Shown in pieces: positions 63,619-64,000 of a DNA stretch of 64,000 nucleotides; the first letter of the stretch is position 1; the number at the start of each line of letters is the position of its first letter. The position numbers were made by a program, and so were the translations under genes. Source of the DNA: Holdemania sp. Marseille-P2844 (GTDB lineage Bacteria; Bacillota_I; Bacilli_A; Erysipelotrichales; Erysipelotrichaceae); contig NZ_LT635454.1 of the NCBI RefSeq assembly GCF_900120005.1, forward strand, positions 526,759 through 590,758, given 5' to 3'. A model generated the notes under the pieces. It was not told where the DNA came from. It made no database searches and saw only the letters and a list, made by a program, of their open reading frames with translations.

Positions 63619-63647
63619 TTGCTTTCAATTTGAAAGTCATGTAAACT
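63619..63647 (+). promoter_or_regulatory. promoter of leader peptide-DAHP synthase transcript
   Basis: TTGCTT at 63619-63624, 17-bp spacer, TAAACT at 63642-63647. Start predicted near 63654, only 2 bp before the GGGAG (63656-63660) of the leader peptide. The 63485-63618 stretch upstream holds small hairpins (GCGGA/TCCGC; GGTTTCC/GGAAACC at 63551-63580) but no gene. Confidence 0.6.
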
Positions 63648-63669
63648 AAGAAGCAGGGAGTGATATTCC

Positions 63670-63711
63670 ATGTTAAAAATCAAATTGAACCACTCTTATT
63701 ATTATTATTGA
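63670..63711 (+). CDS. tyrosine-rich leader peptide
   Basis: 13 residues: MLKIKLNHSYYYY, encoded by ATG at 63670 with GGGAG 9 bp upstream and stop TGA at 63709-63711. Codons 10-13 are four consecutive Tyr codons, all TAT, right before the stop. Position between a promoter and a terminator, ahead of the first enzyme of aromatic amino-acid synthesis, matches the trp/phe/his leader-peptide pattern, with Tyr as the sensed amino acid. Too short to have another function. Translation is inferred. Confidence 0.8.
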   Translation: MLKIKLNHSYYYY

Positions 63712-63714
63712 TAG

Positions 63715-63759
63715 ACCAATGTAACCCAAGATTCCTTGGAATTTTCGCGTTATATTGGT
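63715..63759 (+). promoter_or_regulatory. nested leader hairpin downstream of the leader peptide stop
   Basis: Outer stem ACCAATGTAAC/GTTATATTGGT (63715-63725 with 63749-63759, one wobble) and inner stem CCAAG/CTTGG (63726-63730 with 63735-63739). TGGTTCAA (63756-63763), sharing the 3' side, can instead pair perfectly with TTGAACCA (63685-63692) inside the leader peptide coding sequence, giving mutually exclusive structures. Confidence 0.65.
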
Positions 63760-63764
63760 TCAAG

Positions 63765-63800
63765 AAAACATCAAAGCGGATTTGATGTTTTTTATTTTTT
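63765..63800 (+). terminator. attenuator terminator before DAHP synthase gene
   Basis: Perfect 11-bp stem AAAACATCAAA/TTTGATGTTTT (63765-63775 with 63781-63791), loop GCGGA, then TTATTTTTT. ATCAAA within the leader coding sequence (63679-63684) could compete for the TTTGAT arm. Ends 22 bp before the ATG at 63823. Confidence 0.88.
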
Positions 63801-63822
63801 AACGGAAAAGAGGAGAAAACGT

Positions 63823-64000
63823 ATGATTTTAACCGTAAAAAAAGATTGTGATCGCAATGAACTGCAGCGGCTGATGAATCAGCTGGAGAAAAAGGGGCTG
63901 GAACTCAATTTCAGCGAAGGCGCCAACTATATCGTTCTGGGATTGGTCGGCGATACAACCGCGCTGGACGTCGACTGGCTGAAAAGCTTCACCTGCGTCA
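63823..64000 (+). CDS. aroF: DAHP synthase, 3' end beyond window
   Basis: First 59 residues only. Start MILTVKKDCDRNELQRLMNQ, then LEKKGLELNFSEGANYIVLG and VGDTTALDVDWLKSF form the small ferredoxin-like N-terminal regulatory domain seen in type I-beta DAHP synthases, which often bind the feedback inhibitor Phe or Tyr. The enzyme condenses phosphoenolpyruvate and erythrose-4-phosphate, the first step of the shikimate pathway. AGAGGAG (63809-63815) precedes ATG 63823 by 7 bp. The catalytic barrel is outside the window, so the identity rests on this domain and on the Tyr leader. The gene could also be a close relative with the same N-domain. Confidence 0.75.
   Translation, partial: MILTVKKDCDRNELQRLMNQLEKKGLELNFSEGANYIVLGLVGDTTALDVDWLKSFTCV

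Follow-up and report, generated by a model that had tools for sequence, protein, structure and literature searches.

Predicted tyrosine attenuator upstream of DAHP synthase

The DNA immediately 5' to the DAHP synthase gene at the end of the window (the whole 64-kb stretch that was analysed) probably specifies a ribosome-mediated transcription attenuator that tunes DAHP synthase expression to the supply of tyrosyl-tRNA. Comparison with related genomes supports the assignment of this leader to a class of predicted tyrosine (or tyrosine/phenylalanine) attenuators in the Erysipelotrichaceae, of which 44 distinct elements were counted after removal of antisense and false matches. The features of the leader in the window are as follows.

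63619-63647, + strand: inferred promoter, with a -35 sequence TTGCTT (63619-63624), a spacer of 17 nt and a -10 sequence TAAACT (63642-63647)
63656-63660, + strand: Shine-Dalgarno site of the leader ORF, GGGAG, from direct reading and from relatives
63670-63711, + strand: leader ORF, MLKIKLNHSYYYY and stop, 13 codons, with ATG at 63670, four TAT codons at 63697-63708 and TGA at 63709-63711; kept in 42 elements of the family
63712-63714, + strand: in-frame second stop, TAG, the one used by the congeners (whose leaders end YYYYR and stop), from comparison with them
63715-63759, + strand: hairpin P1, 5' arm 63715-63725 and 3' arm 63749-63759, with compensatory changes at 11 of 11 pairs
63726-63748, + strand: inner hairpin of P1, CCAAG-ATTC-CTTGG, followed by the AT-rich AATTTT, from reading of the window and of relatives
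63765-63800, + strand: predicted intrinsic terminator, AAAACATCAAA / TTTGATGTTTT plus T-tract, stem about 63765-63775 with 63781-63791, from folding and covariation
63810-63815, + strand: Shine-Dalgarno site of DAHP synthase, GAGGAG, from direct reading
63823-64000, + strand: DAHP synthase gene (aroF), ATG at 63823, 338 codons, running past the end of the window (L003:1823-2839)

The original prediction had read this layout from the window, and on direct reading all its components are present: promoter, GGGAG, 13-residue ORF with four tyrosine codons, nested hairpin, terminator with T-tract and DAHP synthase gene. It had also seen no T-box, in agreement with the Rfam searches, in which neither the T-box covariance model (RF00230) nor any other model matched above threshold in the window. 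None of the amino-acid leader families (Trp, His, Leu, Thr and Phe leaders) exceeded its gathering score there, and no regulatory family was prominent at permissive thresholds. The window occupies G000:C17:526759-590758, and the encoded DAHP synthase is 97% identical to the Holdemania massiliensis enzyme, which points to Holdemania as the genus.

A consensus scan for promoters and terminators was uninformative, as it missed both the promoter and the terminator of the leader. The promoter went unlisted because its -35 sequence agrees with TTGACA at only 3 of 6 positions. Support for the promoter comes from conservation in relatives: the congeners and the genera g21 and g31 keep the layout of TTGCNT, about 17 nt and TGTAAACT/TGTACACT upstream of the leader. 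Equivalents of the leader Shine-Dalgarno site, AGGAG or GGAG, are found in most relatives at an unchanged position. After the tyrosine run, the two closest congeners have CGA (Arg) and then TAG, whereas the window has TGA and then TAG; the window leader thus stops one codon earlier, with the distance from the last tyrosine codon to P1 unchanged. In the window, P1 begins 9 nt after the first base of that codon. Folding of the leader RNA gives -39.4 kcal/mol, where shuffled sequences average -24.6 (z = -4.5). The predicted terminator is weak and AT-rich, at about -8 to -10 kcal/mol (-10.8 kcal/mol for the stem with its tail), a weakness that in this folding model would suit a regulated terminator.

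Distribution of the leader class

A search of the family for DAHP synthase relatives found them in 196 genomes, and the regions upstream of these genes were then compared. Leaders with tyrosine runs were found in the congeners, g21 and g31 (MLKIKLNHSYYYYR, MLKFNLNHSYYYYYR, MNTIVITRSYYYYR, MKLKTGRFYYYE, MLNFFSSYYYYQ and MILKHAYYYYR), and genera g22 and g56 have tyrosine/phenylalanine runs. A covariance model, R1, was built from six sequences in a length-equalised alignment and searched against 273 whole Erysipelotrichaceae genomes; its matches extended to the regions upstream of the aroB and aroE/K operons. A second model, R2, was built from 15 sequences and used with a cut-off of E <= 0.01. 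It matched in 35 genomes representing 18 of 60 genera, or about 32 of the 273 genomes once the false matches within the family (L227, L228, L229, L232, L233 and L273) had been taken out. Leader ORF, P1 and terminator are kept together as one unit in these approximately 32 genomes. The model searches covered whole genomes and were blind to gene annotation; all elements with readable downstream DNA precede aroF, aroB-aroC or aroE/K(-aroF). The class occurs in many genera of gut bacteria, with predicted control over three kinds of shikimate-pathway operon.

Among 295 genomes of the order, every match falls within the Erysipelotrichaceae, and 395 genomes of the class searched with R2 yielded no true relative outside the family. 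Five out-of-family matches (G320, G348, G432, G592 and G646) were rejected as ordinary terminators with neither a leader nor an aro gene. The closest Oscillospiraceae DAHP synthases have no tyrosine leader within 500 nt upstream, and a search of plasmid records with DAHP synthase returned distant relatives only.

About 284-350 nt upstream of aroF in genome G020 (L084) lies a divergent leader, MIRGNYMIKLDKKGFYYFYYR and stop, with another hairpin and terminator; the covariance models did not detect it. The count of 44 elements probably understates the size of the class.

Covariation of P1 and the terminator

Compensatory changes in the stems and conserved tyrosine codons in relatives were the two signs that the original prediction had proposed to look for, and both were found. 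P1 covaries at all 11 pairs across the relatives, 6 of the 11 already within the first six sequences, and its positions pair in 90.9% of alignment cells. For the whole structure of P1 and terminator, there are 233 double-changed cells as against 70 in shuffles, a count that includes a few antisense matches. The outer stem of P1 varies freely; its inner hairpin is conserved in sequence as CC...UGG, with UGG in 42 of 44 elements. The terminator stem likewise shows compensatory changes, with a nearly constant core, AGCAUC/GAUGCU. This constancy arises in part from the way in which the elements were found, since a second leader with a different terminator was missed.

Leader peptides and operon specificity

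In 42 of the 44 elements, spread over many genera, the leader encodes a peptide of 9-15 residues with a terminal tyrosine (or tyrosine/phenylalanine) run. The spacing from run to stop is exactly one residue in 40 of these 42 leaders and none in the other two. Over their last eight positions, the 42 leaders contain 122 tyrosine codons, 72 phenylalanine codons and no tryptophan codon. The aroB element L253 (genome G087) has a tyrosine run with no in-frame stop at the usual place, possibly reflecting a sequencing error or a decayed leader. Element L267 is truncated by a contig end and its leader peptide is unreadable.

The composition of the run differs with the operon. Tyrosine makes up 0.83 of the run in aroF leaders, 0.67 in aroB leaders and 0.40 in aroE/K leaders; for aroB or aroF against aroE/K, p is about 0.001, computed on related sequences that are not independent. 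In four of the sampled genomes (G006, G038, G043 and G055), the leader of an aroB-aroC-aroF-...-tyrA operon is the richer in tyrosine and that of an aroE/K-aroF operon the richer in phenylalanine, so that each DAHP synthase would have its own sensor. Genome G168 is the extreme case, with a presumed natural specificity swap between its two leaders (L250, L265): a tyrosine-only leader on aroB, MRMSKMYYYYE and stop, and a phenylalanine-only leader on aroE/K, MKHSLIFVFPFTFR and stop (FVFPFTF). Genomes G021 and G071 are exceptions to the pattern of tyrosine-rich and phenylalanine-rich operons. With this operon-dependent make-up, isozyme-specific feedback seems to be encoded in about a dozen codons.

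Proposed mechanism

In the mechanism that we propose, RNA polymerase would initiate just before the leader ORF, with a ribosome trailing it onto MLKIKLNHSYYYY. When tyrosyl-tRNA is ample, the ribosome would clear the four tyrosine codons and exit at the stop, P1 would form, and with P1 formed the weak downstream terminator would halt transcription. When it is scarce, the ribosome would stall in the tyrosine run, close enough to P1 to mask its base; termination would then fall and aroF would be transcribed. A pause of the polymerase after the inner hairpin of P1 may synchronise the two machines. The sequences themselves show the anatomy, its conservation and covariation, its confinement to shikimate-pathway genes and the operon-specific Tyr:Phe ratio; tyrosine shortage as the signal, read-through as its result and the way in which P1 acts on the terminator are inferred.

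Given the usual ribosome footprint, a ribosome whose A site holds the last tyrosine codon would cover roughly 4 nt at the 5' end of P1. With these 4 nt masked, the mean predicted stability of P1 drops to -6.9 kcal/mol, from -14.7 kcal/mol unmasked. Modelled at the stop, the ribosome abolishes P1; on an earlier tyrosine codon it barely touches it. According to these models, the geometry of stalling alone would not determine which way the response goes, because a stall at the first tyrosine codon spares P1 and a ribosome at the stop melts it most.

In the classical four-segment attenuator, a stalled ribosome would mask the 5' arm of P1 and leave the 3' arm (region 2) free to pair with the 5' arm of the terminator (region 3) as an antiterminator. 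Such an arrangement is a sub-model of ribosome-mediated attenuation and no alternative to it, and we regard it as doubtful for the present class. Regions 1 and 3 are alike in several groups and partial 2:3 pairings can be drawn, UUGA with UCAA in the aroF group and UUUGAGGC with GCAUCGAA in the aroE/K copy L234/L272, but in the average over the 44 elements regions 2 and 3 pair just as well as shuffled sequences or swapped partners do (mean -3.5 kcal/mol, versus -3.3 shuffled), and the terminator out-competes this pairing thermodynamically. Other upstream segments showed no clear excess of pairing with the terminator arms, the leader ORF with the terminator 3' arm being marginal. The terminator was still predicted when folding was done with the P1 5' arm masked. 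A weak 2:3 pairing or some non-classical coupling may operate. Two competing pairs had been suggested from the window, TTGAACCA with TGGTTCAA and ATCAAA with TTTGAT; both are present there, but their conservation does not extend beyond the genus. The 44 sequences provide a natural series on which the question of the missing antiterminator can be tested.

Short of an antiterminator, the proposed attenuator might work kinetically. We tentatively suggest a family-wide, tyrosine-specific ribosome sensor in which P1, melted only when a ribosome has reached the final codons or the stop, and a polymerase pause together set the extent of termination, and in which duplicated copies with differing Tyr:Phe composition would confer a separate amino-acid specificity on every DAHP synthase operon. 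The motif TTNTTT occurs in the loop region of P1 in 24 of 44 elements, compared with 17% in shuffles; about 17 of the copies lie at -1 to +2 relative to the point where the inner hairpin ends, and many relatives read UGG-UUAUUU. In the window this stretch reads AATTTT, with no exact TTNTTT. The NusG protein of the window's genome carries RNTPGVTGF, whose RNTPG motif we take to contain the Asn-Thr recognition pair of Bacillus subtilis NusG. In B. subtilis, for which that pair has been described, a NusG-dependent pause has its hairpin 11-12 nt upstream of the RNA end and TTNTTT at 11 to 6 nt upstream of it (PMC12288461). By analogy, the conserved inner hairpin with UUAUUU possibly constitutes a NusG pause site, at which a pause would give the ribosome time to catch up; the window's copy, with AATTTT, may pause less.

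Three further readings compete with ribosome-mediated attenuation. The element might act on translation or on RNA stability, the second hairpin being no working terminator, as its weak, AT-rich stem might suggest; the stem and T-tract are nevertheless kept in the elements with compensatory changes of their own, and the downstream Shine-Dalgarno site lies outside both hairpins, so we consider this improbable. More improbable still is that the hairpins form part of a T-box or of a small-molecule riboswitch, the ORF and its tyrosine codons being incidental. The window's genome does contain 23 T-boxes, one of them before tyrS, and the UGG of the inner hairpin could in principle face the CCA end of a tRNA. 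What is conserved, however, is the reading frame, the identity of the codons and the single codon between run and stop, whereas the P1 outer stem changes freely; the window has no Rfam match above threshold and no T-box in the genome lies near an aro gene. This reading is largely refuted by the covariation and the codon pattern. Contact of the conserved UGG with a tRNA CCA end was itself dropped as a candidate, the UGG being paired with CCA inside the inner hairpin. Finally, a chance ORF before an ordinary promoter-terminator pair is refuted by the sequence comparisons: a short AT-rich ORF is by itself unremarkable, but four TAY codons running (TAYTAYTAYTAY, found once) are expected 0.01 times in the 64-kb window, and the leader is conserved in many genera, always upstream of aromatic genes.

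Other aromatic control in the same genome

In addition to the YYYY leader of the stand-alone aroF, the window's genome has a second aromatic leader, MLKNICEKIEHPSSSYFYFTFR and stop (ending SYFYFTFR), upstream of an aroB-aroC-aroE/K-aroF-aroA-tyrA-aroQ operon (L235:4654-4720; G000 contig C15, about 417153). This leader, which neither R1 nor R2 detected, comes with a separate hairpin and with a terminator richer in GC. The T-box that precedes tyrS, a gene identified by eye from its sequence, is located at L204 (G000 C12:173319-173523); most of the other 22 T-boxes are found before genes for tRNA synthetases or transporters. Two different tyrosine sensors, the predicted leader and a T-box, thus appear to coexist in this genome.

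Comparison with known leaders

The closest relatives of the present class would seem, by analogy, to be the aroR-aroF leader of Corynebacterium, the aroF uORF motif of Acholeplasma and the His leaders of the Erysipelotrichales. No description of a tyrosine-run leader, and nothing on the Holdemania element, was found in the open-licence literature, a result that is no proof of absence. The original prediction needs correcting in that ribosome-mediated attenuation is already on record in the Firmicutes and in this order: leader peptides of Firmicutes had been reported by 2010 (PMC2965389), and both Erysipelotrichales His leaders (PMC9413887) and an Acholeplasma aroF leader (PMC8632094) have been described. 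The His leader-peptide attenuators occur in Erysipelotrichales, Peptostreptococcaceae and the Bacillus cereus group (PMC9413887). Those of the Erysipelotrichales share with the present class their order, the placing of the regulatory codons (3-5 consecutive) directly upstream of the attenuator hairpin, and the terminator that follows. They differ in that they control histidine operons and that their authors report antiterminators, a feature not confirmed for the present class.

The Acholeplasma candidate, uORFC-13-1, is a computed uORF before aroF with at least one Phe codon (PMC8632094). Like the present class it has aroF as target, a promoter, an RBS, a further stem and a terminator. Compared by description, it differs in being confined to Acholeplasma and environmental sequences, with no tyrosine run and no other aro operons reported. 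If Acholeplasma was among the 395 genomes of the class that were sampled, the lack of a true R2 relative outside the family argues against close homology with uORFC-13-1.

The general logic of codon run, hairpin, terminator and biosynthetic gene is shared with trpL, hisL and pheL of the Proteobacteria. These leaders have their regulatory codons within or beside the first pairing segment, and their antiterminator is strong, whereas the hairpin of the present class begins after the stop codon. In the tlrB and vmlR leaders of Bacillus subtilis, the leader peptide is accompanied by a NusG pause at TTNTTT, which gives translation time to catch up (PMC12288461, PMC9226507). Many members of the present class resemble them in having TTNTTT after the P1 inner hairpin, although the window's copy does not; tlrB and vmlR respond to antibiotics and not to amino acids.

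The aroR-aroF leader of Corynebacterium glutamicum, reportedly the subject of Neshat et al. in 2014, likewise places an aromatic-codon leader peptide before a DAHP synthase gene. Its Phe-Tyr-Phe run answers limitation for phenylalanine, not tyrosine (PMC11802643, PMC4046766). In that system ribosome stalling raises transcription, a response that in the present class is predicted. C. glutamicum belongs to another phylum, the DAHP synthase leader of the window has four tyrosines and no phenylalanine, and two kinds of leader are found per genome. Tyrosine control in the Firmicutes is usually assigned to T-boxes, and the known aroF leader, that of Corynebacterium, answers to phenylalanine; the leaders described here would sense tyrosine through the ribosome.
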